A stretch of DNA of 64,000 nt from Verrucomicrobiota bacterium (GTDB lineage: Bacteria; Verrucomicrobiota; Verrucomicrobiia; Chthoniobacterales; UBA10450): contig JAFASN010000006.1 in the NCBI GenBank assembly GCA_019244415.1, positions 34,473-98,472 on the forward strand. The letters are read 5' to 3'. The translations under genes and the position numbers were made by a program. Numbering within the stretch: the first letter of the stretch is position 1; each line of letters begins with the position of its first letter. The notes under the pieces were generated by a model. It searched no databases. It had not been told where the DNA came from and was given only the letters and a program-made list of their open reading frames with translations. Shown piece by piece: positions 50,814 through 64,000 of the stretch.

Positions 50814-50936
50814 ATCTAACGAGACACAAGATCAGCTACCGCGCCCAACAGCGCGCATGGCTGCAGGTTGAAGGTTGTAGCTACTCTAAGGGGGGGAGCA
50901 GAGCGGGGCGCCATTAGCTGCATCGCGGGGTTAGAC
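50814..50936 (-). repeat. attC 1 (variant family, left end of array)
   Basis: ATCTAAC ... GTTAGAC boxes. Arms of the GATCAGCTACCGC type (family II), shared with attC 11 and 18. The stem has mismatches near its tip. The GTTAGAC box supplies the stop codon of the CPBP gene. Confidence 0.85.
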
Positions 50937-51659
50937 CTTCTCGGCGAAAGAGGCCCTGGTTTCCGCTACTTGCTCCCGCAAAACAAGCCATGCAATCAAG
51001 CCCGATCCAATGTCGATCAAGGCGTGTAGTAAAATCGCCGGCCAGAGCGAGTTCGAAATCGCGAAGACCAACGTCATGACAGCGCCCAGAATCGCAGTCC
51101 GCACGATGCCGCTCACGCCTTGGTAGGAATGTCCAAGGGCGAATACAATCATCGCGATCGCTGCAGCTCCCCACCAGCTCGCCCATGGCTGGAGCGCCCA
51201 GATAAGGTAGCCGCGGAAGATGAACTCTTCACAGAACCCAGCCGTTAGCGATAAGGCAAAGAACCAGTACAATTCAGTGCGCGTGTGGGGAAGGATAACG
51301 ACCAGCTTGGCGAATGTCTCACGCAGCTTTTCGCGGGCGCGAGGCTTGCGCGCGACTTGGTAGGCGCCCCGACCTTGAATCCCCACAAAGGCAATGTTCA
51401 GGCCAATCGCCACGCAAAATCCCCAGCCGGGCGAGAAAGCGAATCCCAGCGCGCGCCAGGCGCGACCGTTTGCGATCCAGAGCACCGCTCCGCCCGCGAC
51501 TAACGCCCACATCAACGTCATCCAGATCAACCAATAGCGGAGCCGTGCGGGACCTGGATCGATACCGACCCACCGAAGGAAGATGCGCCACAGAACAAAT
51601 TGATCGAAAAGAAGTGCGAAGGCGACTAATCCTAAATACAGGATATCAGGTGTTGTCAT
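50931..51659 (-). CDS. CPBP-family intramembrane (CAAX-like) protease cassette gene
   Basis: The ORF runs up to 51716, but that part is translation of attC 2; ATG 51659 (MTTPDILYLGL) gives 242 residues. About seven helices with the Abi/CPBP motifs: EE-R in GFCEEFIFRGYL, the FALGHSYQG His, and LLHALIDIGSG. Family members are intramembrane glutamic proteases; bacterial ones are linked to bacteriocin self-immunity or prenyl protein processing. The stop codon is formed by the attC 1 core. Confidence 0.87.
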   Translation of the reverse strand: MTTPDILYLGLVAFALLFDQFVLWRIFLRWVGIDPGPARLRYWLIWMTLMWALVAGGAVLWIANGRAWRALGFAFSPGWGFCVAIGLNIAFVGIQGRGAYQVARKPRAREKLRETFAKLVVILPHTRTELYWFFALSLTAGFCEEFIFRGYLIWALQPWASWWGAAAIAMIVFALGHSYQGVSGIVRTAILGAVMTLVFAISNSLWPAILLHALIDIGSGLIAWLVLREQVAETRASFAEKV

Positions 51660-51664
51660 AGCTG

Positions 51665-51787
51665 GCCTAACAAGACAAAGCTCAGCCGCGACTACCCGAG
51701 ACGGCTCGCCGCTCACTGAGTATTTTAATCACGAATCGTCACAATTAACAAACCGGGCAGCCGTCGGCTGCAGCACCTGGGTAAGCC
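51665..51787 (-). repeat. attC 2 (degenerate core)
   Basis: GCCTAAC opening box; closing box GTAAGCC departs from GTTRRRY. Arms CTCAGCCGCGACTACC / GGCAGCCGTCGGCTGC are still recognisable. Recombination at this site is probably weakened. Confidence 0.8.
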
Positions 51788-51880
51788 TTTAGCACTGCAA
51801 GGTGTGAAACTTCCGGATAATAAAAAAGCAGAAAGCTTTCCTTTCATGCAATGTTCTTGAGGCCCCTTTTGTCTGACCTG
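51788..51880. other. Untranslated 3' part of cassette 2
   Basis: Ninety-three bases between the DUF-like gene stop and attC 2; A/T-richer than the rest, no gene seen. Confidence 0.4.
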
Positions 51881-52480
51881 CTAGTAGCGCCGGTGTTCTT
51901 CGGGTTGGAGTTGGGTGAGAAGCTCCCCGGCAGCGGTAGCATAATCGGTAAAGAACTTCGCGACTACATCGAGAGCGTGCGGATAGGCGGCGAAACGTTT
52001 GCGCAGTTGCTTAGTCACCGGATCGTAAAAGAAGGTAATGTCCTGGTCGAGATTTGGCACGATGAGTTCATCGCTTAGTTTTTGAAAGTGGTTGATGTCG
52101 TTTAGCCCGGCACGCGCAACGCTTTCTAGTTTGCGCAGGGTCACGACTGTCTTTACATCCAGTAACTGGTATCCTCCGGATTCTAGTAGGGCAGCGACGT
52201 CGCTAGGGCTATAATCAGTAGTAAACGAGAACGCACCTAAGCGAGGCATCTCGCCAGCATCGAGAGCACGCTTGAATCTCGCTGCCGCGTCGGTCTGCTG
52301 GGCGACTTGGGCTCGGGCGGCCTCGATTGATGCCCGCACATCTTGCTCCAAGGCGCCGATGATCTGATCGCGCCGACGAAGCTCTTCACGATGTTGCTGG
52401 TAATTGTTTAGCCAGAAAGCCGCATACACACCCACAAAGACCAGAACGAGTTCGGCAATCCAGTGACGAAGTGCACGCAT
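51881..52480 (-). CDS. Single-pass membrane protein with coiled segment, unknown (cassette)
   Basis: ATG 52480 chosen over an upstream TTG (52489). 199 residues: an N-terminal helix WIAELVLVFVGVYAAFWLNNYQQ followed by a charged coiled region (REELRRRDQIIGALEQDVRASIEAARAQV) and a helical soluble part. The opening resembles DUF6090-type proteins, whose function is unknown. It begins 16 bp from attC 3. Confidence 0.72.
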   Translation of the reverse strand: MRALRHWIAELVLVFVGVYAAFWLNNYQQHREELRRRDQIIGALEQDVRASIEAARAQVAQQTDAAARFKRALDAGEMPRLGAFSFTTDYSPSDVAALLESGGYQLLDVKTVVTLRKLESVARAGLNDINHFQKLSDELIVPNLDQDITFFYDPVTKQLRKRFAAYPHALDVVAKFFTDYATAAGELLTQLQPEEHRRY

Positions 52481-52495
52481 AACGGACAAGGTAAG

Positions 52496-52620
52496 ATCTA
52501 ACGAGACAAAAGCTCAGCTGCGGCTACCGGATAGCGCCCCTTCGCTGCTCGACGTTATTCTAATCACGTATCCCCAAGTTAACAAGCCGGGTAGCCGTCG
52601 CCTGCATCGCCTGGTTAAAC
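52496..52620 (-). repeat. attC 3
   Basis: ATCTAAC ... GTTAAAC boxes, family I arms (GCTCAGCTGCGGCTACC / GGTAGCCGTCGCCTGC). Confidence 0.9.
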
Positions 52621-52624
52621 GTTC

Positions 52625-52969
52625 TCACCTGTCGTGGTGGACATGAAACTGGTGTCCATCAGGATCTCTCACGGTAAACTGCCGCATTCCCCACGGCTTC
52701 ACTGAAAGTGGTTCAACGATCATCGCTCCCGCCATCTGCATCTCTGCAAATGTGCCATCCAGATCCTCCGCATAAATCCAATGACTCTGCGGAGTGATGG
52801 GTAGAGACGATAATCGGAAAAAGATAGCCGCGTCTCCGTTGCGTGATACTGCCGCAATTTCAGGAAGAGCCCAGGCCTTATTAAAACCGAGCTTGTCACA
52901 GTAATAACTTCTAGCTATCTCCAAGTCACTAACCGGTAATTCTCGTACTAAGTGACCTATCTTAGTCAT
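52625..52969 (-). CDS. VOC (glyoxalase/dioxygenase fold) protein, cassette gene
   Basis: 114 residues: GHLVRELPVSDLEIARSYYCDKLGF at the start and WGMRQFTVRDPDGHQFHVHHDR at the end are the two paired beta-alpha-beta modules of the VOC fold. Metal-ligand His/Glu positions are partly present, so it may be a resistance-type or enzymatic VOC protein; no substrate can be named. Starts 28 bp from attC 4 and ends 4 bp before attC 3: a compact one-gene cassette. Confidence 0.88.
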   Translation of the reverse strand: MTKIGHLVRELPVSDLEIARSYYCDKLGFNKAWALPEIAAVSRNGDAAIFFRLSSLPITPQSHWIYAEDLDGTFAEMQMAGAMIVEPLSVKPWGMRQFTVRDPDGHQFHVHHDR

Positions 52970-52996
52970 AGTTATACCTTCCGAATAAGTGTGTAC

Positions 52997-53120
52997 GTCT
53001 AACGAGACACAAGCTCAACCGCGGCTGCCGAGACCGAGCTTGCCTGCAAGTGTGACGGTGGAAGTCACGATAAGCAAGGAAACAAACCGGGCAGGTGTTG
53101 GCTGCAGCGCCTGGTTAGAA
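52997..53120 (-). repeat. attC 4
   Basis: GTCTAAC ... GTTAGAA (last base departs from Y). Arms GCTCAACCGCGGCTGCCG / GGCAGGTGTTGGCTGC. The end box supplies the TAA of the next gene. Confidence 0.87.
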
Positions 53121-53585
53121 CTCTTTCGTGCCATGACGCTCCGCATAATCCTGGAATATACGTCTGACACCGCGCAGAAGAAAGGCAGCAACGATGATAC
53201 TGACGAGCGTGCCTGCCGCGGCATGTGCGATGAACCATGTGAAAAGCTGGAGCACGACAACGATGACAAGCATGGCAACAACGGCGAAACGACTTTGACG
53301 GAAGATGAAGAATGCAAGCACGCCAGAGATAGCTGCGATAATAAGGCTGAACGCAAGAGAAATCGCGGTCAGAAACGGCGTATGCTGAAGATACTGCTGC
53401 GAAGCAAACTCATGGCCGAGAACGCCGCCTGTGCTCGGCCGATGGTAGATGAAGTACTGAATAAGGGCTAGGACGCCCGTGAACAGGCTAATAGCGGCAT
53501 AGACGATTGCCGCATAGCCGGCGTGCTGCACGCTCTTGTCTGAGTAGTCGTAGAGCGACGAACTTTGGTCTTTCGCGTAGTCCAT
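53115..53585 (-). CDS. Four-helix membrane protein of unknown function (cassette)
   Basis: 156 residues. Hydrophilic start (MDYAKDQSSSLYDYSDKS), then four helices: AAIVYAAISLFTGVLALIQYF, FLTAISLAFSLIIAAISGVLAFFIF, FAVVAMLVIVVVLQLFTWFI and LVSIIVAAFLLRGVRRIF. No family recognised. ATG 16 bp from attC 5; stop in the attC 4 core. Confidence 0.78.
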   Translation of the reverse strand: MDYAKDQSSSLYDYSDKSVQHAGYAAIVYAAISLFTGVLALIQYFIYHRPSTGGVLGHEFASQQYLQHTPFLTAISLAFSLIIAAISGVLAFFIFRQSRFAVVAMLVIVVVLQLFTWFIAHAAAGTLVSIIVAAFLLRGVRRIFQDYAERHGTKEF

Positions 53586-53600
53586 GCGCGGGGCGTTAAG

Positions 53601-53725
53601 GTCTAACGAGACAAAGCTCAGCCGCGGCTACTTTGGAGCGCGGCTTCGCTGCTCAACGCGTATTCTAATCACGTTTGGTCAAGTTAACAAACCGGGTAGC
53701 CGTCGGCTGCAGCGCCTGGTTAGAT
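53601..53725 (-). repeat. attC 5
   Basis: GTCTAAC ... GTTAGAT, family I, arms GCTCAGCCGCGGCTAC / GTAGCCGTCGGCTGC. Confidence 0.93.
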
Positions 53726-53732
53726 GTTGCGG

Positions 53733-53996
53733 TCACCTGCGGTAAACGTCACGCCGATGTCTGACCCGCTGAATCTCGATGACTCCGCTACCACGCAGTA
53801 GCTCATAGACAACGCGGTAATCGCCGAGCCGAATGCGATAAGTGTGCTCCGACCCGGTAAGCTTCTCCGAGCCGTGTGGCAGCGGCTCGTGTCCGAGCGT
53901 GGCGACGGCGTCGAGAATACGCGTGACCTCCTGCTGGGCGATGCGCCGCAAATCCTTCTTCGTCGACGCGCGCCAGCGGATCTCAAACGATGCCAT
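53733..53996 (-). CDS. RelE/ParE-family toxin (cassette toxin-antitoxin module)
   Basis: 87 residues of the type II toxin fold: FEIRWRASTKKDLRRI, HEPLPHGSEKLTGSEHTYRIRLGDYRVVYEL and the C-terminal VRHRRDVYRR with the basic and aromatic residues expected of an mRNA interferase of the RelE group. The start overlaps the antitoxin gene by 14 bp, the normal arrangement (antitoxin first). It ends 8 bp before attC 5. Confidence 0.9.
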   Translation of the reverse strand: MASFEIRWRASTKKDLRRIAQQEVTRILDAVATLGHEPLPHGSEKLTGSEHTYRIRLGDYRVVYELLRGSGVIEIQRVRHRRDVYRR

Positions 53997-54171
53997 CTCG
54001 CTTGAGCTCCGAAACGAACTGCTCGTGCGGGATGGTCGGCTCGTCGCGACGCTCCGCCGCGACTGCTAAATCGTCCAAATCCTCGAGGAGCTTCTCGTAC
54101 GCGGAAATCGGCAGCAGCACTGCCGTGCGCTCGCCCTGCTCGTCGGTGAGATACTGGACCGAATCGCTCAT
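53983..54171 (-). CDS. Phd/YefM-type antitoxin (cassette)
   Basis: From ATG 54171 (GTG 54180 also possible) 62 residues: VQYLTDEQGERTAVLLPISAYEKLLEDLDDL is the Phd/YefM-like DNA-binding core, followed by an acidic/helical tail (EQFVSELKRDGI) that would wrap the toxin. Expected to repress its own promoter together with the toxin, so this cassette should be expressed without help from the integron promoter. Confidence 0.88.
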   Translation of the reverse strand: MSDSVQYLTDEQGERTAVLLPISAYEKLLEDLDDLAVAAERRDEPTIPHEQFVSELKRDGIV

Positions 54172-54219
54172 CGGCAACACTGTAATCTGAAACGCCGCGC
54201 ATGTCGAGATGCGAGCAAC

Positions 54220-54344
54220 ATCTAACGAGACAAAGCTCAGCCGCGGCTACCTGACAGCGCGACTTCGCTACTCTGAGACTATTCTAATCACGTTTAGGCA
54301 AGTTAACAAACCGGGTAGCCGTCGGCTGCAGCGCCTGGTTAGAT
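54220..54344 (-). repeat. attC 6
   Basis: ATCTAAC ... GTTAGAT, family I. Supplies the TAA of the next gene. Confidence 0.93.
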
Positions 54345-54740
54345 GACTTGGCGTCGCTCGTCCACAGCGTGCGTGGCAAAAAAGAGCAGGAATGCCGATG
54401 ACGCGATGCAAAATAGAACGATGAGAACGGCTGGGGGACGCGCGATAGCGGGGTCAGTCGTGAAGCCGTATACGAGCCACAGAACGTGGAACGCGACGAC
54501 CAAGGGGGACGTGACCAGCCACAGAGTTCGCGCCCAGCGGCAATGCAGCAAAAGCCCAATGCCAGACGCGGCGACGATAAAGCCAAGTGGCAGTATGATG
54601 GCAAACGAGCCGAGTAAGGGATGTGAGAATGCCGCCGTGCCAATCGAGTGGACCACTATCGCCGCTAGTGCGCCGCAGATGCAGTAGTAAAGCCCGAGCG
54701 CAGTGATGAAGGCTCCAAAGACGATGCGCAGCGTAGTCAT
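54339..54740 (-). CDS. Four-helix membrane protein of unknown function (cassette)
   Basis: 133 residues with four helices (VFGAFITALGLYYCICGALAAIVV, FAIILPLGFIVAASGIGLLLH, LWLVTSPLVVAFHVLWLVYGF, VLIVLFCIASSAFLLFFATHAV). No recognised family. ATG overlaps the attC 7 opening box; the stop is in attC 6, so cassette and gene are nearly the same length. Confidence 0.78.
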   Translation of the reverse strand: MTTLRIVFGAFITALGLYYCICGALAAIVVHSIGTAAFSHPLLGSFAIILPLGFIVAASGIGLLLHCRWARTLWLVTSPLVVAFHVLWLVYGFTTDPAIARPPAVLIVLFCIASSAFLLFFATHAVDERRQVI

Positions 54741-54863
54741 CTAACGAGACAAAGCTCAGCCGCGGCTACCTGAGAGCGCGGCTTCGCTGCTTTGGAGGCA
54801 TTCTAATCACGAAAGTACCAGGAAACAAACCGGGTAGGCGTCGGCTGCAGCGCATGGTTAGAT
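54739..54863 (-). repeat. attC 7
   Basis: ATCTAAC ... GTTAGAT, family I with the GAAAGTACCAGG loop type. Confidence 0.93.
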
Positions 54864-54876
54864 GTAGCGGTCAGCA

Positions 54877-55206
54877 TCACATATTCTTTAACAACGGCTT
54901 TTCTCGGCTGTGGATGAGATCAAGCCGGACCGTGGGCGACTCGCCTATCCGTGAGAATGTAACTTCTGTCACAAAGTCAGAATAGCCATTACTGGCGATA
55001 GCGCTCCAGTGCCATCGACCGTTCTTCAAGGTAGGGTCGGCAGATGACGCATCAAAAGGACTGCAGCCGAATTTCCATTTGCAATGGGCGTTTGCGATCT
55101 CTGCAGCGAACCGGCTCGCTTGGTCGGCGGACAATGCAGGGCGGTCACCCGCATTTGTGGTGCAGGCGAGTGCAACGAACAGAAACGCGGCGAATACTCG
55201 CGGCAT
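54877..55206 (-). CDS. Exported protein of unknown function (cassette)
   Basis: ATG 55206 chosen because the eight upstream residues (MSSLDVVP) are attC translation. 109 residues: signal peptide MPRVFAAFLFVALACTTNAG, then a small mixed domain with two cysteines' spacing (C...C in HCKWKFGCSPF) and a beta-rich end (SDFVTEVTFSRIG). Unrecognised. Confidence 0.72.
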   Translation of the reverse strand: MPRVFAAFLFVALACTTNAGDRPALSADQASRFAAEIANAHCKWKFGCSPFDASSADPTLKNGRWHWSAIASNGYSDFVTEVTFSRIGESPTVRLDLIHSREKPLLKNM

Positions 55207-55215
55207 CGGAACTAC

Positions 55216-55339
55216 ATCTAACGAGCTCAAGCTCAGCCGCGGCTACCAGAGAGCGCGGCTTCGCTGCTCACTGAGTACACTACTGAGGAATGGCCAAGTA
55301 ACAAGCCGGGTAGCCGTCGGCTGCAGCGCCTGGTTAGGT
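55216..55339 (-). repeat. attC 8
   Basis: ATCTAAC ... GTTAGGT, family I. Confidence 0.93.
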
Positions 55340-55341
55340 CT

Positions 55342-55674
55342 TTAGTACGACACGCCTTTCGCTGTGTACGTAATTGATTCGGTCACTACTCGGCTCTTTC
55401 CAGGCGAGAACCGCCAACTACGAAATGCCGCGCTTGCCGCCCGGTCAAGGACGTTCTGGCCAGTGCTCTTCACGACGTACACCGAGGTGACGGTGCCGCT
55501 CGGTGCAACATGCAACGCGAAAACGCCTGCACCCGTAAGGTGGCGCTGCCTTGCCTCGACTGGGTACTCGGGTCGCGGAACCGAGATGGGAATGTCGTGA
55601 TGCGCGGGCGGCTCAGCAAACGAGAACCACGGAAGAGCTGCGGACAATACGGCAATTAGCGCGACGCGTATCAT
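55342..55674 (-). CDS. TonB C-terminal-domain protein, exported (cassette)
   Basis: 110 residues: signal peptide (IAVLSAALPWFSFAE), then a complete TonB_C domain (PEYPVEARQRHLTGAGVFALHVAPSGTVTSVYVVKSTGQNVLDRAASAAFRSWRFSPG). There is no membrane anchor or Pro-rich arm, so it is not an energy transducer but a stand-alone periplasmic TonB-C module. Stop 2 bp from the attC 8 core. Confidence 0.88.
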   Translation of the reverse strand: MIRVALIAVLSAALPWFSFAEPPAHHDIPISVPRPEYPVEARQRHLTGAGVFALHVAPSGTVTSVYVVKSTGQNVLDRAASAAFRSWRFSPGKSRVVTESITYTAKGVSY

Positions 55675-55677
55675 AAG

Positions 55678-55801
55678 ACCTAACGAGACAAAGCTCAGCC
55701 GCGGCTACCTGGGAGCGCGGCTTCGCTCCTCTGAGCGTATTCTAATCAGGAATGGCCAAGTAACAAACCGGGTAGCCGTCGGCTGCAGCGCCTGGTTAGA
55801 T
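55678..55801 (-). repeat. attC 9
   Basis: ACCTAAC ... GTTAGAT, family I. Confidence 0.93.
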
Positions 55802-55816
55802 GCGCGGCGTCGCAAG

Positions 55817-56026
55817 TTATGGGACGATTGACAAAGAGAGAGACACTGGGGCGAATGGCTCAAGCGGAAAGTGCGCCTCGGCCAAGAGCTCGCGCTGGCG
55901 GGTAGAAGATGTGCGAAAGAGGTAGAACTGATCTTCGAGTGGATCACTCATGACGTGCTGCGTCTCGAAATTGCCCGGCCGATCCGGGTCTCCGCGCTTG
56001 CTTTCACCGGCAGATGCAGAAGTCAC
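55817..56026 (-). CDS. Possible small cassette ORF, unknown
   Basis: 69 residues (ending FPLEPFAPVSLSLSIVP), no family. It fills the cassette between attC 10 and attC 9 and begins in the 5' segment shared with two other cassettes, so it may not be the functional element. Confidence 0.35.
   Translation of the reverse strand: MTSASAGESKRGDPDRPGNFETQHVMSDPLEDQFYLFRTSSTRQRELLAEAHFPLEPFAPVSLSLSIVP
55996..56024 (-). repeat. Shared cassette head, copy 1
   Basis: On the minus strand the attC 10 core is followed by GACTTCTGCATCTGCCGGTG. The same head follows attC 26 (identical over about 41 nt with the box) and, diverged, attC 22. Confidence 0.7.
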
Positions 56027-56148
56027 CTAACGAGACAAGCTCAGCCGCGGCTACTAGAGAGCGCGACTTCGCTGCTCTAAGTGTATTCTAATCAGGAATG
56101 GCCAAGTTAACAAACCGGGTAGCCGTCGGCTGTAGCGCCTGGTTAGAC
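56025..56148 (-). repeat. attC 10
   Basis: ACCTAAC ... GTTAGAC, family I; closing arm has GGCTGTAGC instead of GGCTGCAGC. Confidence 0.92.
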
Positions 56149-56343
56149 CGCGACTTGTTCGAACGAGACGTGTGGAATGTCTTCGATCCTCTCCTGAGCG
56201 TGCTCAACCGTAATGCCGCAAATCTTGCCTTCGGCGTCAAGGTCGAGAAGCGTGTTCTCGTCCAGATCGCGTGTCTCTGCCACGTTCCCGCTGCGAAACT
56301 CGATGTAAAGCGTGTCAGTGTCTTTGAAGTACTGGATCTTCAC
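56143..56343 (-). CDS. DUF2283 protein (putative antitoxin partner, cassette)
   Basis: 66 residues from GTG: IQYFKDTDTLYIEFRSGNVAETRDLDENTLLDLDAEGKICGITVEHA is a full DUF2283 domain. Overlaps the upstream gene by 4 bp (GTGA). DUF2283 genes are often paired with a small DUF4258-like gene in candidate toxin-antitoxin modules; neither has a well established activity. The stop lies in the attC 10 core. Confidence 0.87.
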   Translation of the reverse strand: MKIQYFKDTDTLYIEFRSGNVAETRDLDENTLLDLDAEGKICGITVEHAQERIEDIPHVSFEQVAV

Positions 56344-56594
56344 GGGTGAAATGATCGATCGAAGAATGCGTTATGCACGGTCTCACCGTCAGGCAGAAGT
56401 ATAACGCGCAAATAGCGCCCGTCCATCTCTGGAATGGCTGCCCAGCGGCGAATGCGGCCGTCCTGCTGAATCTGCTCACGAGCCGGATCAGCTACAACGC
56501 GTTCGATCCATTCGAGGCGGATGAACGCGCGATCCGGCCGCTGCCGGATGTGCTGAAAGTAACGGGTGAACCGCACACCGGGAAAATAGCGCAA
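56340..56594 (-). CDS. DUF4258-like small protein paired with DUF2283 (cassette)
   Basis: 84 residues from TTG 56594, or 78 from GTG 56576; no ATG is available in frame after the upstream stop. The pattern FTRYFQHIRQRPDRAFIRLEWIERVV, then RRWAAIPEMDGRYLRVILL and DGETVHNAFFDR, has the helix-helix-beta layout of RelE-like DUF4258 proteins. Translationally coupled to the DUF2283 gene. A toxin role is inference from pairing and size. Confidence 0.72.
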   Translation of the reverse strand: MRYFPGVRFTRYFQHIRQRPDRAFIRLEWIERVVADPAREQIQQDGRIRRWAAIPEMDGRYLRVILLPDGETVHNAFFDRSFHP

Positions 56595-56620
56595 GCGTTG
56601 CTAACACGAAAGGCGAAGCG

Positions 56621-56744
56621 GTCTAACGAAACACAAGATTAGCTACCGCGCCCGAGAGCGCGCATGGCTGCAAGTTGAAGGTTATAGCTACTCATAAGCG
56701 GGGGAACAGAACGGGGCGCGGTTAGCTGCATCGCCTGGTTAGAT
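56621..56744 (-). repeat. attC 11 (variant family)
   Basis: GTCTAAC ... GTTAGAT with family II arms (GATTAGCTACCGCGCCC / GGCGCGGTTAGCTGC). Confidence 0.9.
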
Positions 56745-56763
56745 GGTTCGCGTGGCTGCACAA

Positions 56764-57081
56764 TCAGCGTGAATGTAGGCCTGCTAAGACTGCTAGCAAA
56801 ATGCCAGAAACCGCAGCAACGCCGATGGAAACAGCGCCCACACGAATGACGCGCCGCTGCCAACGCTGAATCTGCGAAAGCACTGGTGGGAAAGCGCCTC
56901 GATCGCGGAGCTCGCGTAACTCCGCGAAAGCGCCAAATGGATCGAATGACTCGCTGCCGCGATAAACGTCGTATCCAAACTCGATGATGGTGGCGAAGCC
57001 GGCGAGCCAAGCTAAGACAAACGTAGCGAGCGCCAAAGCGAGGACTGTCTTCAGCAGGAACGCTACGACTGCGTCTACCAT
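56764..57081 (-). CDS. Two-helix membrane protein of unknown function (cassette)
   Basis: 105 residues: long first helix (VVAFLLKTVLALALATFVLAWLAGFATII), a soluble part rich in charged residues (FAELRELRDRGAFPPVL) and a second helix (VGAVSIGVAAVSGILLAVLAG). The ATG overlaps the attC 12 box. No family recognised. Confidence 0.75.
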   Translation of the reverse strand: MVDAVVAFLLKTVLALALATFVLAWLAGFATIIEFGYDVYRGSESFDPFGAFAELRELRDRGAFPPVLSQIQRWQRRVIRVGAVSIGVAAVSGILLAVLAGLHSR

Positions 57082-57204
57082 CTAACGAGCTCAAGCTCAG
57101 CCGCGGCTACCTGAGAGCGCGGCTTCGCTGCTCTGGAACCATTCTAATCACGAAAGTACGAGGAAACAAACCGGGTAGCCGTCGGCTGCAGCGCCTGGTT
57201 AGGT
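57080..57204 (-). repeat. attC 12
   Basis: ATCTAAC ... GTTAGGT, family I. Its core supplies the next stop codon. Confidence 0.93.
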
Positions 57205-57675
57205 CTTTGGTGGCCACTCGAACCCATCTGGAATAAACTCTAATGAGGCGTTACGAGGCAAGCCGTAAAGCTCCACGATAATGCTGGTGCCGAGCTGCTC
57301 AATGCCAGCTCCCTCAGCTCTGAGGTAGTGCACATTGTTCATGACGTGCTCTGACATGGGCTGACCAAGCTCTGCCGCGAAGGCAGAAACCTTTTCTCGG
57401 TCAGCGATGTTGGAGGGACTCAGCAGCACCCAGTCTAGGCCAACTGTGCCGTGCTCCACTGAATACTGCAGGTTGATGGGATCTGCTTCCGGTGAAAGCG
57501 GCGATCTGAACATGGACACCGCGAAGGAGTGGTCTTTTGCAGTGGCAAGGCGGGAAAGGATCGCGGGAATGTCGCTGACAGTTACGAAGCGTCGAGGTAC
57601 TACGCGGCTGCGCAGAAACAGCACGACGGCGACAACTGCTGCGATGACGACGGCGGTAACGAGTAGTGCTCTCAA
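57199..57675 (-). CDS. N-terminally anchored protein of unknown function (cassette)
   Basis: 158 residues from TTG. One helix (LLVTAVVIAAVVAVVLFL), then a soluble domain (RRFVTVSDIPAILSRLATAKDHSFAVSMF ... LGTSIIVELYGLPRNASLEFIPDGFEW). The TTG start is forced by the attC 13 boundary. Unrecognised. Confidence 0.72.
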   Translation of the reverse strand: MRALLVTAVVIAAVVAVVLFLRSRVVPRRFVTVSDIPAILSRLATAKDHSFAVSMFRSPLSPEADPINLQYSVEHGTVGLDWVLLSPSNIADREKVSAFAAELGQPMSEHVMNNVHYLRAEGAGIEQLGTSIIVELYGLPRNASLEFIPDGFEWPPKT

Positions 57676-57676
57676 G

Positions 57677-57801
57677 ACCTAACGAGCTCAAGCTCAGCCG
57701 CGGCTACCGGAGAGCGCGGCTTCGCTGCTCTAAACGTATTCTAATCAGGAATGGCCAAGTTAACAGGCCGGGTAGCCGTCGGCTGCAGCGCTTGGTTAGA
57801 C
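57677..57801 (-). repeat. attC 13
   Basis: ACCTAAC ... GTTAGAC, family I. Confidence 0.93.
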
Positions 57802-57804
57802 CTT

Positions 57805-58233
57805 TTATGGCGCCTCACGAGAGAGCTTCCGAACAGCCTCTTTGGTATCGAACATGTCAAACTCGATCAGATACTCGTGCGCCCACAGCCGATCGGAAGC
57901 GCGCGTGGACTTCTCGTACTCGTGGAGAAGCTTGGCTGCTTCGGCTCGTGGGAGCAGGTCAATAAGCGGCACGAAAATGAGGCCCGTCTCGCTCTCAATC
58001 GGCCAAGCGCGTCCTCGAAGAAGGACAGCGTGGATGATGCCGGCACCGGCTCGATCTGCCACTCGCTTAGACTTGCGCCAGAATCGCTCATCGCTGAAGC
58101 AGGCGGTGGCGTAGCAGAGTTGTTGGAGATGCTCGGCTTCGTAACGTGCCATGTCGCGCCCCGGCGGCATAGCAGGTTGTCCCAATGCGGCTGTCGATAT
58201 AAATGCGACGCGCGCAATGATAAGCGGCTTCAA
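57805..58233 (-). CDS. Exported protein of unknown function (cassette)
   Basis: 142 residues from TTG: probable signal peptide (LIIARVAFISTAALGQ), then a helical domain (EAEHLQQLCYATACFSDERFWRKSKRVADRA ... AKLLHEYEKSTRASDRLW). Not recognised. Confidence 0.68.
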   Translation of the reverse strand: MKPLIIARVAFISTAALGQPAMPPGRDMARYEAEHLQQLCYATACFSDERFWRKSKRVADRAGAGIIHAVLLRGRAWPIESETGLIFVPLIDLLPRAEAAKLLHEYEKSTRASDRLWAHEYLIEFDMFDTKEAVRKLSREAP

Positions 58234-58234
58234 G

Positions 58235-58350
58235 GTCTAACGAGCTCAAGCTCAGCCGCGGCTACCTACCTCGCTGCTCACTGCGTTTTGTAATCAGGAA
58301 GAGCCAAGTTAACAAGCCGGGTAGCCGTCGGCTGCAGCGCCTGGTTAGAT
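58235..58350 (-). repeat. attC 14 (short)
   Basis: GTCTAAC ... GTTAGAT; at 116 bp about 8 bp shorter than its neighbours through loss of part of the terminal loop. Confidence 0.92.
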
Positions 58351-58353
58351 GCT

Positions 58354-58569
58354 TCACCGTGCCTCCACAAAGTCTTGCACTGAAACACCTGCTTGCCGAA
58401 GAGCACCCGCAAGCGTGCCGACCTTAAGCTCACGATGCGCTGGAATAACGCATCCTGCTGCACCACGCCGAAGCACAATGTGACTACCGCGCTGGCGAAC
58501 CACCCTGAAGCCAAGTCGCTCAAGCCGACGCACTGCTTCAGCGCTGGAAACGCACGGGAGCTTAGGCAC
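58354..58569 (-). CDS. hicA: HicA-family toxin (cassette)
   Basis: 71 residues from GTG: SSAEAVRRLERLGFRVVRQRGSHIVLRRG with the catalytic His in GSH, then VIPAHRELKVGTLAGALRQAGVSVQDF, the full YcfA/HicA double-stranded-RNA-binding fold. It degrades mRNA when free. Overlaps the HicB gene by 8 bp; here the antitoxin is first, the reverse of the common hicA-hicB order. Confidence 0.93.
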   Translation of the reverse strand: MPKLPCVSSAEAVRRLERLGFRVVRQRGSHIVLRRGAAGCVIPAHRELKVGTLAGALRQAGVSVQDFVEAR

Positions 58570-58771
58570 GACCGCCTGCTACCTCGAAGGTCGTGACCAA
58601 CGGCTGACCGGCTGGCTGCAACGGGAACTCCTCGAGATACAGTTCCGTCGCCTCGCGCAGGTTGGCGATGGCTTCCGGCACGCTTTCGCCTTGCGTGGTT
58701 GAACCGGTCTCCGGGTTCAGCGCGACGTAGCCGCCTTCTTCGGCGGGAATGAGTACGGCTGTCAGCAACAT
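58562..58771 (-). CDS. hicB: HicB-family antitoxin (cassette)
   Basis: 69 residues: LTAVLIPAEEGGYVALNPETGSTTQGESVPEAIANLREATELYLEEF is the partial RNase H-like HicB domain. No C-terminal DNA-binding domain is present, so autoregulation would need another factor or the whole complex. Its start lies 56 bp from attC 15, leaving room for a promoter. Confidence 0.9.
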   Translation of the reverse strand: MLLTAVLIPAEEGGYVALNPETGSTTQGESVPEAIANLREATELYLEEFPLQPAGQPLVTTFEVAGGRA

Positions 58772-58826
58772 CCAGTAATGTCGCTGTTTTCACGCCTCGG
58801 GTCAACAACGCCCTGACGCGCTCAGC

Positions 58827-58950
58827 ATCTAACGAGCTCAAGCTCAGCCGCGGCTACCTGAGAGCGCGATTTCGCTGCTTAGTCCTATTGTAATCACGAA
58901 AGTACCAGGAAACAAGCCGGGTAGCCGTCGGCTGCAGCGCCTGGTTAGGC
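58827..58950 (-). repeat. attC 15
   Basis: ATCTAAC ... GTTAGGC, family I, GAAAGTACCAGG loop type. Confidence 0.93.
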
Positions 58951-59403
58951 CTAATCACTTGCTCTGCTCGACAACTCCTGAACGCCGAGTCCGAGCGGGT
59001 CCTCCTGGCCGGCGACTGGCGCAAAACGGCCGTCGGACTCGTGCACCAGGAACAACAAATACCGCGGATGCTCAGCCGGATCGAAGAAGGCGAAAGCCGG
59101 CGCATCGATCAAAGGAATATTCGGGTCGGACATGCGATAATGGTGCAGAGTGAAATGCGCGCGTCGGCGACCTTTGAGTACGAGCAGCGTGCGAAACTCT
59201 GTAGCGACTCCGACTACCGGCTGACCGAGAATGACGCTCCGCTCCGGGGTATCGCGCGTGCGTACGATCGGCTGCGCAATGATGACAAGCTCTGCCGCAG
59301 CGAACAGCTGCCGATACGACCACGTCTGCATCAAGCGGCCTGACGCGGGATATGTGCATGCCGTCAGTATCGCGACAATCGCAATGATCGAACGACGCTG
59401 CAT
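58951..59403 (-). CDS. Exported protein (possible lipoprotein) of unknown function (cassette)
   Basis: 150 residues: signal-like start (IIAIVAILTACTYPASG; the LTAC could be a lipobox), then a beta-rich domain (AELVIIAQPIVRTRDTPERSVILGQPVVGVATEFRTLLVLKG, HFTLHHYRMSD, RYLLFLVHESDGRFAPVAGQ). ATG 3 bp from attC 16, stop at attC 15. The pattern resembles small immunoglobulin-like secreted domains but is not named. Confidence 0.75.
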   Translation of the reverse strand: MQRRSIIAIVAILTACTYPASGRLMQTWSYRQLFAAAELVIIAQPIVRTRDTPERSVILGQPVVGVATEFRTLLVLKGRRRAHFTLHHYRMSDPNIPLIDAPAFAFFDPAEHPRYLLFLVHESDGRFAPVAGQEDPLGLGVQELSSRASD

Positions 59404-59405
59404 AG

Positions 59406-59530
59406 GTCTAACGAGGCAAAGCTCAGCCGCGGCTACCTGAGAGCGTGGCTTCGCTGCTCAGCGAGTACTCTAATCATGTTTGGCCAAGTTAACAAACCGG
59501 GTAGCCGTCGGCTGCAGCGCCTGGTTAGGT
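59406..59530 (-). repeat. attC 16
   Basis: GTCTAAC ... GTTAGGT, family I. Partly translated by the gene that overlaps it. Confidence 0.92.
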
Positions 59531-59898
59531 CTTGGGGGCGTGAGTATGAAAATCACATCTGCAGCGAAAACGCCGTTCTCGAGAGCTTCGGCCGGCGGCT
59601 TAAGCCCATTCGCCCGTCGAACGCATTCGAGCGCGAACTTGGCGGCGCGCTTACCTGACGTGTTAGAAACGATCTTTACCTGCTCGACGTTGCCTGTGGC
59701 AGAGACCAAGAACTTAATGTGAGTCGTGCCGGGGTGCGCCCCTTTGCAGCGCGTTTCGACTTGTGCGAACCACGCATGCCCAATACGATTCCACAGCGCC
59801 TTAGCGAAAGCTTTGGTCGCAGGAGTTGCTTGCGGCGTAGTCGCAGTAGCGAGCGTTGCGAAGAAACTCACGAGCACAAATAAGCTTATGCGCTTCAT
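59470..59898 (-). CDS. Exported TonB-C/TolA-like protein whose C-terminus is coded by attC
   Basis: 142 residues: signal peptide (LFVLVSFFATLATA), then AKALWNRIGHAWFAQVETRCKGAHPGTTHIKFLVSATGNVEQVKIVSNTSG, like the periplasmic TonB/TolA C-terminal fold. No stop occurs at the cassette end; the frame runs into attC 16 and ends PNQALQPTATRFVNLAKHD. The natural domain probably ends near VIFILTPP, so the tail is an attC-derived extension. Confidence 0.75.
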   Translation of the reverse strand: MKRISLFVLVSFFATLATATTPQATPATKAFAKALWNRIGHAWFAQVETRCKGAHPGTTHIKFLVSATGNVEQVKIVSNTSGKRAAKFALECVRRANGLKPPAEALENGVFAADVIFILTPPRPNQALQPTATRFVNLAKHD

Positions 59899-59901
59899 AA
59901 G

Positions 59902-60026
59902 ACCTAACGAGACGAAGCTCAGCCGCGGCTACCTGAGAGCGCGGCTTCGCTGCTCTGAAAGTATTTTAATCACGAAAGTACCAGGAAACAAACCGGGTAA
60001 CCGTCGGCTGCAGCGCCTGGTTAGAC
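59902..60026 (-). repeat. attC 17
   Basis: ACCTAAC ... GTTAGAC, family I. Confidence 0.93.
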
Positions 60027-60524
60027 CTTCGGTAGCTTGTCCCAAAGCTGTCCCAACTCAAAGCGCAGGAGCACGGGATCTTCGGGTGCTTCCAAGCCAT
60101 GCTCAAATGTGTTGCCGATCAGGATGACTGTGTGTGGAGGCTGGAAAAACATGTCTGCGCTGACAAATGGTGTCTTTTCTGGCTCCTCCAGCGCGCGAAG
60201 CTCACGCGCCTTCAGCGAAAAGACGTAAACATGATAATGCCACGGCTGGTGCCCGGCGCCGTTGAGAGCGGTGATAACAAGGAAATTGCTGTCGTGCGTC
60301 CATTCGGCGTTGCATGCGACATCACGGCTTAGCTCATGTTCGAACAACGTGTTGTGCTCGCGATCCTTGATCGCGAGCATTGTGCCTTCGGACTTTGTGT
60401 CGTGGAACGTGGTTTTCGTGAAGATCGCATTGAGTCGGCCGTCGCGAGTGCTTACGGGGTAGTCGAATGGCCGCTCGGCGGCGGCGCTACAAGCGATAAT
60501 CACCACGAGTGCGGCTACGCGCAT
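60021..60524 (-). CDS. Exported protein of unknown function (cassette)
   Basis: 167 residues: signal peptide (AALVVIIACSAAAE), then a beta-strand-rich domain (YPVSTRDGRLNAIF, NTLFEHELSRDVACNAEWTHDSNFLVITA, YHVYVFSLKARELRALEE), suggestive of a few propeller-like blades but too short for a full propeller. The stop lies in the attC 17 core. Unrecognised. Confidence 0.74.
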   Translation of the reverse strand: MRVAALVVIIACSAAAERPFDYPVSTRDGRLNAIFTKTTFHDTKSEGTMLAIKDREHNTLFEHELSRDVACNAEWTHDSNFLVITALNGAGHQPWHYHVYVFSLKARELRALEEPEKTPFVSADMFFQPPHTVILIGNTFEHGLEAPEDPVLLRFELGQLWDKLPKV

Positions 60525-60527
60525 GAG

Positions 60528-60650
60528 GTCTAACGAGACACAAGATCAGCTACCGCTGGCGAGAGCGAGCGTCGCAGCGGGTTGCCGTTGCAGTTGCGGC
60601 GGATGTGGAACACACAGCGGCCAGCGGTTAGCTGCATCGCCTGGTTAGGC
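60528..60650 (-). repeat. attC 18 (variant family)
   Basis: GTCTAAC ... GTTAGGC, family II arms GATCAGCTACCGCTGG / CCAGCGGTTAGCTGCATC; long internal part differs from the others. Confidence 0.9.
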
Positions 60651-60894
60651 GTTAACGTCGGTTTGCGTAGAGGCGTGGCACGTGAACGCTGCACAATGCG
60701 CATACTAGCTACGGCAAGCTGACCAACACCAGGAAAAAATCACTGAAAGCGTGGCCGCTAATCCTAGGGGCGCCCACATCGAGCTCCCGCGTCGTGCGGC
60801 AGCACTGACGAGTGGCGGCTCGGCAGCAGAATCGGCGCACGAGCAATTTCGTGAAGCAAGGCATCACCAACGTTGCTCGCGAGCGGCTATAAGC
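60651..60894. other. Cassette without a convincing gene
   Basis: About 244 bp between attC 19 and attC 18. The only long frame is a 63-residue, cysteine- and arginine-rich minus-strand ORF (60709-60900) that I do not trust. It may carry a regulatory or RNA element or a decayed gene. Confidence 0.4.
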
Positions 60895-61019
60895 GCCCAA
60901 CGAGACAAAGCTCAGCCGCGGCTACCTGAGAGCGCGGCTTCGCTGCTCTGAGCGTATTCTAATCACGTTTGGCCAAGTTAACAAACCGGGTAGCCGTCGG
61001 CTGCAGCGCCTGGTTAGGT
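60895..61019 (-). repeat. attC 19
   Basis: GCCCAAC ... GTTAGGT, family I. Confidence 0.92.
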
Positions 61020-61033
61020 CTCATTCGGCTCGG

Positions 61034-61354
61034 CTAGTAGGTAATGATCGTTCTTTCTGCAGTAGCTTCGATCGGTGAATTTTCATCGGTGCGCCAGGTG
61101 CCCCTGCGTCGCATAGCGTAGAACGTGCTGCCTGTTGAGTCGGACTCGCTACAGCAACGCTCGTCCACGTGCACGCGATCACGCCCAATAGCCTCAAGCT
61201 TAATCGTGGTGCGGCCAATATGAGGTGTGCTCGCGGCCAAACGCTTGATCTGGCCTACGTCCTCAGCAGACAAGGCGGTCGCGTAAGGCCCGACCAGCTC
61301 TATGTGAGTACTGCAGGCGCTCAGCAGAAACGCCAAAACGAGCTGCGGTCGCAT
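61034..61354 (-). CDS. Putative lipoprotein of unknown function (cassette)
   Basis: 106 residues: LVLAFLLSACSTHIE has a lipobox (LSAC), then a small domain (DVGQIKRLAASTPHIGRTTIKLEAIGRDRVHVDERC ... STFYAMRRRGTW). ATG 3 bp from attC 20. Not recognised; exported to the inner or outer membrane if the lipobox is used. Confidence 0.75.
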   Translation of the reverse strand: MRPQLVLAFLLSACSTHIELVGPYATALSAEDVGQIKRLAASTPHIGRTTIKLEAIGRDRVHVDERCCSESDSTGSTFYAMRRRGTWRTDENSPIEATAERTIITY

Positions 61355-61356
61355 AG

Positions 61357-61480
61357 ACCTAACGGCTCAAGCTCAGCCGCGGCTACCTGAGAGCGCGGCT
61401 TCGCTGCTTATTAAGCATTTTAATCACGAAATTACCAGGAAACAAACCGGGTAGCCGTCGGCTGCAGCGCCTGGTTAGGC
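61357..61480 (-). repeat. attC 20
   Basis: ACCTAAC ... GTTAGGC; opening spacer shortened (TAACGGCTCAAG). Confidence 0.92.
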
Positions 61481-61846
61481 CTTTCGCGTGCGAACATACT
61501 CCTCGATCTTCTTCAGTACGAGCTGACGTAACTCAACGGGCAAGTCGAGGGCGCGACGCTGAAACTCGGCGACAACGGTCTCGGCGGGAAATGCACCATC
61601 GGGAATGAGAATGGGCGTCGCATTCCCCCATGCGCTGTGCTCGCCGTCATCGACTTGCATGTGCGAGAAACCCCGGCCCGAACGCCACGTCAAGGCGCGC
61701 TCCCACCGCGGCTTACCATAGCAAAGCTGGAAACCGTGAATCACGCCGCTGGGTAGATGCCACACGATGAGATCGAAGTAGTCGTCGCTCAGCCATGTGC
61801 GGTCGTAATCGCCCGGCACGGCTTTCTTGGGCACGCGCTCTAGCAT
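61475..61846 (-). CDS. Unknown cytoplasmic protein (cassette)
   Basis: 123 residues, no signal or membrane segment: YDRTWLSDDYFDLIVWHLPSGVIHGFQLCYGKPRWERALTWRSGRGFSHMQVDDGE, then a helical C-terminus (ELRQLVLKKIEEYVRTRKA). The pattern is coherent coding sequence without a family I can name. The stop is in the attC 20 core. Confidence 0.75.
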   Translation of the reverse strand: MLERVPKKAVPGDYDRTWLSDDYFDLIVWHLPSGVIHGFQLCYGKPRWERALTWRSGRGFSHMQVDDGEHSAWGNATPILIPDGAFPAETVVAEFQRRALDLPVELRQLVLKKIEEYVRTRKA

Positions 61847-61856
61847 GCTGGTGAAG

Positions 61857-61981
61857 GCCTAACGAACTCAAGCTCAGCCGCGGCTACCTGGGAGCGCGGC
61901 TTCGCTGCTCTTGAAGCATTTTAATCACGAAAGTACCAGGAAACAAACCGGGTAGCCGTCGGCTGGAGCGCTTCGTTAGGT
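61857..61981 (-). repeat. attC 21
   Basis: GCCTAAC ... GTTAGGT; closing arm GGCTGGAGCGCTTCGTTAGG departs at two bases. Confidence 0.9.
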
Positions 61982-62343
61982 GCCGGCGCTCCCAAAGTAC
62001 GACCGGCGTCCCACCTCCTGCTTCTTCGGTCTCCTCGGCGCGTTCGCGGCGGAACTTCTGCAGCGGTGGGCGTACGCTGGCCACGAACGTCTCCTGCGCG
62101 TGAACTGGTGATTGAGAGTCAATACTCACGGCGCGTTCTCTCCCAATGGGCACGCTTTCGCCGCGGAACGCTCACGAACTAGAGGGAATGTCAACCGCGC
62201 TTTGCTGGCGCGTCGCGCGTACTCTGCGCGTCCTCTCACCTGAGAAGGCGTGACTGCTCAAAAGTACAGCCTAAGTACGAGAGGGCATAGCCTCACCACG
62301 TAGTACCACGAAGCGCTTCGCTTGAGCGGCAGATGCAGAAGTC
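61982..62343. other. Non-coding-like cassette, copy A
   Basis: About 360 bp with no conserved reading frame. Much of it matches 63627-63989, including CAATCACCAGTTCACGCGCAG read on the minus strand, CTGCGCGTCCTCTC and the block AAGTACAGCCTAAGTACGAG. Single-base indels between the copies break every candidate frame (for example the 89-residue ORF 61884-62153). It also carries the cassette head shared with copy 1 and copy B. Confidence 0.6.
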
Positions 62344-62468
62344 ATCTAACGAGACAAAGCTCAGCCGCGGCTACCCGAGAGCGCGACTTCGCTGCGCTGG
62401 AAGCATTCTAATCACGAAAGTACAAGGAAACAAACCGGGTAGCCGTCGGCTGCAGCGCCTGGTTAGAT
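62344..62468 (-). repeat. attC 22
   Basis: ATCTAAC ... GTTAGAT, family I. Confidence 0.93.
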
Positions 62469-62505
62469 GGTGAACGTTGCTGCACGCAAGGCGGCGCACA
62501 ATGGA

Positions 62506-62763
62506 TTACATCGGTGCGATGGCGAACGAAATAGCAAGAACGACAACAGCGATGCCAAAGACGAGGTACAACCAAGCTACAAGGTAGTAGCGGGCGCGAA
62601 GGAGACGTGCCGCAGCTGCTGCCAAAAGTGCTCCGAATATGCTGAGAATGATCCACGTGCGTTGTGAGCCGACAGTCACGATGCCGATGAGTGCTGCGTA
62701 TGGGCCAAGTAGTGTAAGAAGATCGGCGGGAAAGTGACCCGATTTTGTTGTCCTCTCGCTCAC
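62506..62763 (-). CDS. Three-helix membrane protein of unknown function (cassette)
   Basis: 85 residues from GTG: hydrophilic start, then helices LLGPYAALIGIVTVG, WIILSIFGALLAAAAARLL and YYLVAWLYLVFGIAVVVLAISFAIA. Not recognised. It begins 10 bp from attC 23. Confidence 0.72.
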   Translation of the reverse strand: MSERTTKSGHFPADLLTLLGPYAALIGIVTVGSQRTWIILSIFGALLAAAAARLLRARYYLVAWLYLVFGIAVVVLAISFAIAPM

Positions 62764-62772
62764 GGCACAACC

Positions 62773-62896
62773 ATCTAACGAGACAAAGCTCAGCCGTGGC
62801 GAGAGGGAGCGCGGCCTCGCTGCTCTTGAACCATGTTAATCAGGAGTGGCCAAGTTAACAAACCGTCTCGCCATCGGCTGCAGCGCTTGGTTAGGT
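62773..62896 (-). repeat. attC 23 (covarying arms)
   Basis: ATCTAAC ... GTTAGGT; arms CAGCCGTGGCGAGA / TCTCGCCATCGGCTG differ from family I on both sides in a compensating way. Confidence 0.92.
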
Positions 62897-62967
62897 GCTC
62901 GTGTGCCATTCCCTTGTCGTGCGGCGCTACGCTTGCGCAAAGCGCGTCGGCTGCGGCCATTCCTGCT

Positions 62968-63141
62968 TCATAGTTCAGTTGAAACGTTGCCGGTCGTGTC
63001 TGCTCCTGCAAAGCTCGGTTGAGTGAGCGGTGTCGCATGTGGCAGTCGAATGCGTGTTAGTGCTCGAAGCGTGTCATGCGGCAGCGTCACAATGGCCATT
63101 CCTGCAATGGCGACGAGTAGCATAGTATGCGAGCGCTTCAT
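62968..63141 (-). CDS. Small exported or anchored peptide, unknown (cassette)
   Basis: ATG 63141 (MKRSHTMLLVAIAGMAIVTLP) gives 57 residues: a single N-terminal hydrophobic segment and a short Pro/Thr-rich tail. Upstream ORF-track residues are attC translation. No family. Confidence 0.55.
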   Translation of the reverse strand: MKRSHTMLLVAIAGMAIVTLPHDTLRALTRIRLPHATPLTQPSFAGADTTGNVSTEL

Positions 63142-63144
63142 GTC

Positions 63145-63269
63145 ACCTAACGAGCTCAAGCTCACTCGCGGCGAGCGGGAGCGAGGGAACTAAAACAGTA
63201 TGAAGAAACAAACTACCAAAGCGGTGGGAAACAAACCGGCTCGCCGTCGAGTGCAGCGCCTGGTTAGGT
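63145..63269 (-). repeat. attC 24 (covarying arms)
   Basis: ACCTAAC ... GTTAGGT; arms CTCACTCGCGGCGAGC / GCTCGCCGTCGAGTGC, again changed on both sides. The terminal loop is A-rich and contains an ATG read by the plus-strand ORF. Confidence 0.92.
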
Positions 63270-63271
63270 CT

Positions 63272-63751
63272 TTGCGCCCGCACGAAGAAGAAGTGCTGAA
63301 CTACCTGCAATGGTTTGCCGAGAACCGTCCGCAGAAGTGGGTTCGACCGATGGATGTCGGCGGCTCCGATGGGTCTCACCATAGCGGCACGCTGGCAAAG
63401 CTGGTCAAGCTTGGATATGCCGAATCCCGTCGGCGCTGTGCGTCGATAGTCGGTGCGCTCGGCTCGAATCGGGCTGGAAAAGAGTATCGCGCGCTCAATA
63501 GACCTAACGAGCTCAAGCTCAGCCGCGGCTACCTGAGAGCGCGACTTCGCTGGTGTGAGAGTACTTTAATCACGAAAGTACGAGGAAACAAACCGGGTAG
63601 CCGTCGGCTGCAGCGCCTGGTTAGGTGTAAGGGTGGCGAAGGAACGAGCGGCTTTCGCCGTGTACTTGCTTCTTCTGTCTGCCTGAGGACATGGCGTGCG
63701 GGACTTCTGCATCGGTGGGCGAACGCTGGCAACGAACGTCTCTGCGCGTGA
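63272..63751 (+). CDS. Possible winged-helix protein encoded against the array direction (cassette)
   Basis: The only convincing frame in this cassette is on the plus strand: PHEEEVLNYLQWFAENRPQKW, then HHSGTLAKLVKLGYAESRRR, a helix-turn-helix/winged-helix pattern. The start could be TTG 63272 or ATG 63200 inside attC 24. No stop occurs before attC 25, so the frame runs through it (RPNELKLSRGYLRAR) to 63751; the true domain probably ends near KEYRAL (about 63498). It may be a regulator; its expression would need its own promoter. Confidence 0.5.
   Translation: MRPHEEEVLNYLQWFAENRPQKWVRPMDVGGSDGSHHSGTLAKLVKLGYAESRRRCASIVGALGSNRAGKEYRALNRPNELKLSRGYLRARLRWCESTLITKVRGNKPGSRRLQRLVRCKGGEGTSGFRRVLASSVCLRTWRAGLLHRWANAGNERLCA
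63502..63626 (-). repeat. attC 25
   Basis: ACCTAAC ... GTTAGGT, family I, GAAAGTACGAGG loop type. Confidence 0.93.
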
Positions 63752-63989
63752 ACTGGTGATTGCGTCAGTACTCAGGGCGGTTCTCTCTCGATGGCCACGC
63801 TTTCGCTGGGCAACGCTTACGAGCCAGAGGCCATGTCAAGGACGCTTTGCTGGCGTCTGGAGCGTACTCTGCGCGTCCTCTCTGCGGAGCCAAGGCGTGA
63901 CTGCTCAAAGTACGACCTAAGTACGAGGCGGTGTAGCCTCATCACGTAAAACGAGGAACCGCTTGCTTTCACCGGCAGATGCAGAAGTC
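63627..63989. other. Non-coding-like cassette, copy B
   Basis: Diverged second copy of 61982-62343 (shared blocks include CTCTGCGCGTGAACTGGTG, TACTCTGCGCGTCCTCTC, GGCGTGACTGCTCAAA and AAGTACGACCTAAGTACGAG), ending in the head shared with 55996-56024. Frames are not kept between copies. Confidence 0.6.
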
Positions 63990-64000
63990 ACCTAACGAGA
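63990..64000 (-). repeat. attC 26 (partial, cut by window end)
   Basis: ACCTAACGAGA, the opening box and first spacer bases of a further attC site. It shows the array continues to the right. Confidence 0.8.

Follow-up and report, generated by a model that had tools for sequence, protein, structure and literature searches.

The window, the whole stretch of 64,000 nucleotides analysed here (C118:34473-98472), ends where its contig ends, inside an integron cassette array that fills its right-hand part (Table 1). The units of the array stand in tandem, with one attC per short open reading frame and complementary cassette ends, as gene cassettes do. Most of the cassette open reading frames lie on the minus strand, and some begin directly after an attC. 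The integrase-proximal end of the array is its right-hand end; C118, which stops within the array, carries no IntI gene, and a join to C76 or C78, the contigs that bear the genome's two other arrays, is not present in the assembly. Both of these contigs contain a match above cut-off to TIGR02249 (integron integrase), in each case adjoining attCs of the same family. Because the integrase gene and the attC pattern share a strand on C76 and on C78, the plus strand of the window corresponds to the attC bottom strand. The C78 integrase is intact at 350 amino acids, with approximately 20 additional residues before the RHH motif relative to 2A3V, its relative in the PDB. The C76 gene (L018:9516-10539) is broken into two frames of 61 and 298 amino acids. 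The nearest integrases are found in Candidatus Udaeobacter and in metagenome-assembled genomes of the Chthoniobacterales, at 72% identity and below. It is from them that this uncultured, soil-type genome is assigned to the Verrucomicrobiota, since the Verru_Chthon protein marker TIGR02600 gave no more than a weak match, under its cut-off.

Table 1. The cassette array and the attC sites discussed in the text, in window positions; bulged bases are bracketed.
Feature	Position	Strand	Remarks
Integron cassette array	50814..64000	+	25 attC sites in full; a 26th, cut by the contig end, is present as its first R box
attC 1-4, distal array end	50814..53120	+	two broken inner-stem pairs each, bulges retained
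attC 18, whole site	60528..60650	+	outside the interval given in the sequence-only reading
attC 18 left arm GAT-CAGCTA-CCGCTGGC	60544..60560	+	
attC 18 right arm GCCAGCGG[T]TAGCTG[C]ATC	60620..60638	+	bulges T 60628, C 60635
attC 23, whole site	62773..62896	+	
attC 23 left arm GCT-CAGCCG-TGGCGAGA	62788..62804	+	
attC 23 right arm TCTCGCCA[T]CGGCTG[C]AGC	62866..62884	+	bulges T 62874, C 62881
attC 24, whole site	63145..63269	+	
attC 24 left arm GCT-CACTCG-CGGCGAGC	63160..63176	+	
attC 24 right arm GCTCGCCG[T]CGAGTG[C]AGC	63239..63257	+	bulges T 63247, C 63254

The cassettes themselves yielded few matches. An Rfam scan of 44-64 kb returned a single weak and irrelevant hit. One minus-strand cassette open reading frame (59470-59898) has a weak, sub-threshold match to the TonB C-terminal domain, and no Pfam match was found in the other seven cassette frames tested. 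One cassette family that seems to lack a long open reading frame turns up repeatedly in the arrays, with copies that are 81% identical at 61980-62344 and 63625-63993; its ends read ACTTCTGCATCTGC beside the R box, a sequence that also occurs at the cassette ends at 55995-56035 and in L018. Elsewhere in the genome, a further attC-like cluster lies at C100:9800-13171 (L186) and single attC-like sites lie on C1, C14, C16, C50 and C62, all without an integrase match nearby; several of these sites are low-scoring and degenerate.

The sites of the array have the anatomy of attC. We compared the 37 sites of the genome's three arrays (the home sites) with a wider set of 233 sites from this genome and its relatives, and in both the R'' and R' boxes at the site ends (RYYYAAC and GTTRRRY) contain a near-invariant CTAAC and GTTAG. 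Each site is an imperfect palindrome in which the L''/L' stem is kept by pairing with little conservation of sequence, the central spacer between R and L boxes is unpaired, and extrahelical bases (EHBs) are restricted to the R''-L'' arm. EHB1 is T in 37/37 home sites, and EHB2 is C in 35 of them, with T in site 10 and G in site 21. In the wider set, which was gathered with a covariance model and would therefore somewhat under-sample bulge-less sites, T occupies EHB1 in 231/233 sites and C occupies EHB2 in 209/233. The bulge columns are low in entropy and near-fixed in position, whereas neighbouring stem columns vary freely, by up to 1.5 bits. The prospect that bulge positions might vary freely among sites, which would have told against the sequence-only reading, is thus not borne out at home or among the relatives. 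A scanner blind to base identity, whose sole requirement was a right arm bearing two single-base bulges between R boxes, recovered 21 window sites on the plus strand; searches for left-arm bulges, of the minus strand and of shuffled sequence each gave no site.

A separate observation concerns the facing spacer columns L14-R24, which seem to change in a way that avoids pairing across 232 sites, with 19 pairs observed against 51 expected. The facing bases are A with C or G with A, and rarely G with C. This is a weak signal (tree-null p=0.015, three joint changes on the tree) on which we base no claim.

The three variant sites of the sequence-only reading, attC 23, 24 and 18, follow the common plan, with T and C bulged on the R''-L'' arm six pairs apart. 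Their arms pair as the sequence-only reading had quoted them, and in each case both arms differ jointly from the main family. Its description of two extra unpaired bases on the same arm, one A/T and one G/C, resolves to T then C. The two strands fold about equally well, with mean fold energies of -26.5 and -25.0 kcal/mol, and in the minimum-energy folds of the home sites EHB1 is unpaired in 35/37 and EHB2 in 32/37. Since both strands fold to a similar stability, it is not fold stability that chooses the strand; it is marked by the bulges. Covariation alone does not pick a strand either, but the asymmetry of the bulges does. In the V. cholerae repeats, it is the L-box bulge that chooses the strand, and exchanging it for C costs 2.7-fold; more generally, attC sites recombine via their bottom strand, with EHBs setting the strand choice (PMC2727003).

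The home sites were scored on a named structure of 24 pairs. Paired cells amount to 96.2% against 91.4% after shuffling, and 14 pairs are altered on both sides against 4.1 in shuffles. Within the inner stem, 12/17 pairs have changes on both sides, and sliding the partner columns abolishes the pairing signal. Covariation was then assessed with our own script in the manner of R-scape, using a tree-based null. Among the 37 home sites none of the individual pairs reaches significance (best E=0.06), but the average over the 17-pair inner helix is 7.4 against 0.07, with a null maximum of 4.8. The suggestion that the window itself holds direct evidence of selection therefore fails at the level of single pairs and stands at that of the helix average. 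With relatives included (232 distinct arm pairs, with the arms aligned separately and blind to structure, under tree-based and rate-preserving nulls), E falls below 0.05 under both nulls for eight stem pairs, the top eight column pairs by score are all predicted stem pairs, and the helix mean reaches 122.7 against -0.7. We regard it as highly improbable that relatedness among the sites, or an alignment fitted to the structure, produced this covariation artificially. The sites are indeed related by duplication and single home pairs fail the tree-based null, yet eight pairs survive an alignment in which the structure played no part, under both nulls, and the signal does not outlast the sliding of partner columns.

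How the arms came to change together is a separate matter. Template switching within a quasi-palindrome, in which one arm is copied from the other, would generate joint changes by mutation, with no selection on the fold. Swaps of C-G to G-C, which pass through no wobble intermediate, are frequent from one stem family to another, and attC 23 is overall nearest to family I yet has had its inner stem replaced; both would fit a copying mechanism. We nevertheless consider it unlikely. Among 46 independent close pairs of sites, with loops at least 85% alike, stem differences fall into 32 single breaks, 24 single changes after which the bases still pair, and 7 compensated doubles; most are thus single-sided, wobble intermediates are present, compensated doubles are in excess, and no swap of a multi-pair block was seen. 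Copying of an arm would also tend to erase the bulges, and EHB1 is retained almost throughout. Stepwise mutation with selection fits better than template switching, because intermediates exist and blocks do not jump. A further possibility, to which we give about even odds, is that the variant stems belong to cassettes imported from related bacteria with co-adapted attC lineages, so that little of the compensatory change took place in this genome. Alternative stems are widespread across the family, and two sites of the array are nearest to sites of relatives: attC 11 (0.90 identity, against 0.87 at home) and attC 18 (0.84, against 0.76 at home). These two are probably imported cassettes whose stems pre-existed, judging from sequence similarity, and not the products of change in place. 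By contrast, the nearest sites to attC 23 lie in its own array (0.84), and attC 24 is equally close to home sites and to those of relatives (0.78). As attC 11 and 18 sit closest to relatives and attC 23 to its own array, the joint arm changes do not share one in-place history, and the description of both arms as changed relative to family I, correct in that the arms differ jointly, is misleading for attC 18 and 11. Import would in any case merely shift the compensatory changes to other lineages, without removing them.

The distal end of the array departs from this pattern of maintained pairing. Broken pairs number two in each of attC 1-4, as against one each in 2 of the other 21 sites (Fisher p=0.0012, with groups chosen post hoc), and their number follows position along the array (Spearman p=0.0013). 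These are presumably the oldest sites, and their broken pairs fit relaxed selection at the old end of the array. Within this group attC 4 (52997-53120), which has its two broken pairs, looks chimeric: its left arm is like that of the main family, and the right arm is identical to the one in L018 site c04 (GGCAGGTGTTGGCTG).

The outermost part of the stem behaves differently from the inner helix. Variable R-box pairs show no covariation within an attC, either in the home sites or among relatives. When the two ends of the same cassette are compared instead, positions 6-10 outward match in 84/92/97/79/63% of cases, against 59/43/41/41/32% within the same attC. Across 143 cassettes of relatives the corresponding values for positions 6-11 are 92/91/87/74/48/43% and 62/55/44/29/32/30%. 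Covariation of the outer stem therefore emerges only if the site is considered in the form it takes in the excised circle, which points to the excised cassette as the unit within which ends are matched. That complementarity in gene cassettes extends past the R boxes of 7 nt and reaches 9-11 nt was already known (PMC2727003). Since the complementarity of the outer 10-11 bp links the two ends of a single cassette, and these meet only in the circle, selection would act largely on the excised form.

We are now able to propose, with high confidence, that these are attC sites of a sedentary chromosomal integron, in which the L stem changes freely, the bulges are kept as a strand mark and selection falls largely on the excised or recombining form. 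According to this model the plus strand of the window, once single-stranded, would form a hairpin, and IntI would bind it at the R boxes and the L stem. Any base of the L stem could be exchanged provided that the arms still pair, while the bulges on the R''-L'' arm (T, six pairs, C) would be kept because they show IntI the strand to recombine and thereby set the orientation. Binding by IntI and recombination of the bottom strand are predicted, and the array may still be active today. The covariation in 232 sites, the compensated doubles and the near-invariant bulge columns support the proposal of the sequence-only reading that selection acts on the fold and the bulges, with the statistical part holding for the whole helix at home and for eight individual pairs once relatives are added. 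The model in which stem letters are free and pairing and bulge position are not, so far based mostly on mutagenesis of few sites, here receives statistical and evolutionary support.

The covariance model built from the home sites was also used to search 83 genomes of the family and 236 genomes of the class. Sites resembling attC occur in 82/83 genomes and 14/14 genera of the family and in 72/236 genomes of the class; a prevalence of 82/83 is unusually high for integron parts. Curated integron-integrase matches above cut-off were found in 33/83 family genomes, many of whose assemblies are fragmented. The L-box bulge of attC has been described as 'almost exclusively' G (PMC2727003), a consensus that is not strictly defining and from which the C of these sites departs. 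In integrase-anchored verrucomicrobial loci the bulge is C in 13/13 sites, as against 5/27 T-N6 sites at integrase-anchored loci of other groups, which mostly have G (Fisher p=7e-7). Loci across the class agree on C, although they were fetched with a C-bearing model. It seems probable, on balance, that a clade of soil Verrucomicrobiota, with attC in nearly all genomes of one family, has fixed C for G at the strand-selecting bulge. If so, this is a natural, clade-wide experiment, implying either that the strand signal lies in bulge position and not in the base, or that the integrases of this clade differ in the base they prefer. With a large clade that breaks the 'G' rule, natural pairs of enzyme and site become available for testing whether position or base matters. 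Residues of the integrase were considered as a cause of the C bulge and rejected. Aligned to 2A3V, the C78 enzyme has K, R, K, Y and W at the EHB2 contacts and P, H and H at the EHB1 contacts, as IntI1 has (contacts as named in PMC3053210), and so offers no explanation.

Integrons have been listed for Verrucomicrobiota in a review (PMC8618304), and the set of taxon models in Ghaly et al. 2021 leaves this phylum out (PMC8352920). The literature searched, which mostly did not extend to subscription papers, yielded no structural description of these verrucomicrobial attCs. The clade-wide C at the strand-selecting bulge is a new detail in sites whose function and mechanism are otherwise those of ordinary attC. 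Their closest general parallel is the VCR of the V. cholerae sedentary chromosomal integron, with which they share the R''-L''-loop-L'-R' layout and the unpaired central spacer, together with two or more bulges on the R''-L'' arm, a bottom strand that lies on the intI coding strand and R-box pairing that reaches 9-11 nt (PMC2727003). They differ from VCR-type attCs in having C and not G at the L-box bulge, and a loop sequence that forms a family of its own. In bulge bases and spacing they match the T-N6-C sites of the blaVIM-2 cassette and of engineered attCdfrA1 mutants (Larouche and Roy 2011, PMC3053210). IntI1 excises T-N6-C about as well as T-N6-G, and IntI3, IntI2*179E and SonIntIA excise it better (PMC3053210). 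Elsewhere, however, T-N6-C is an exception, with blaVIM-2 cited as the sole such cassette, or a construct, whereas here it is the rule of a whole bacterial group.
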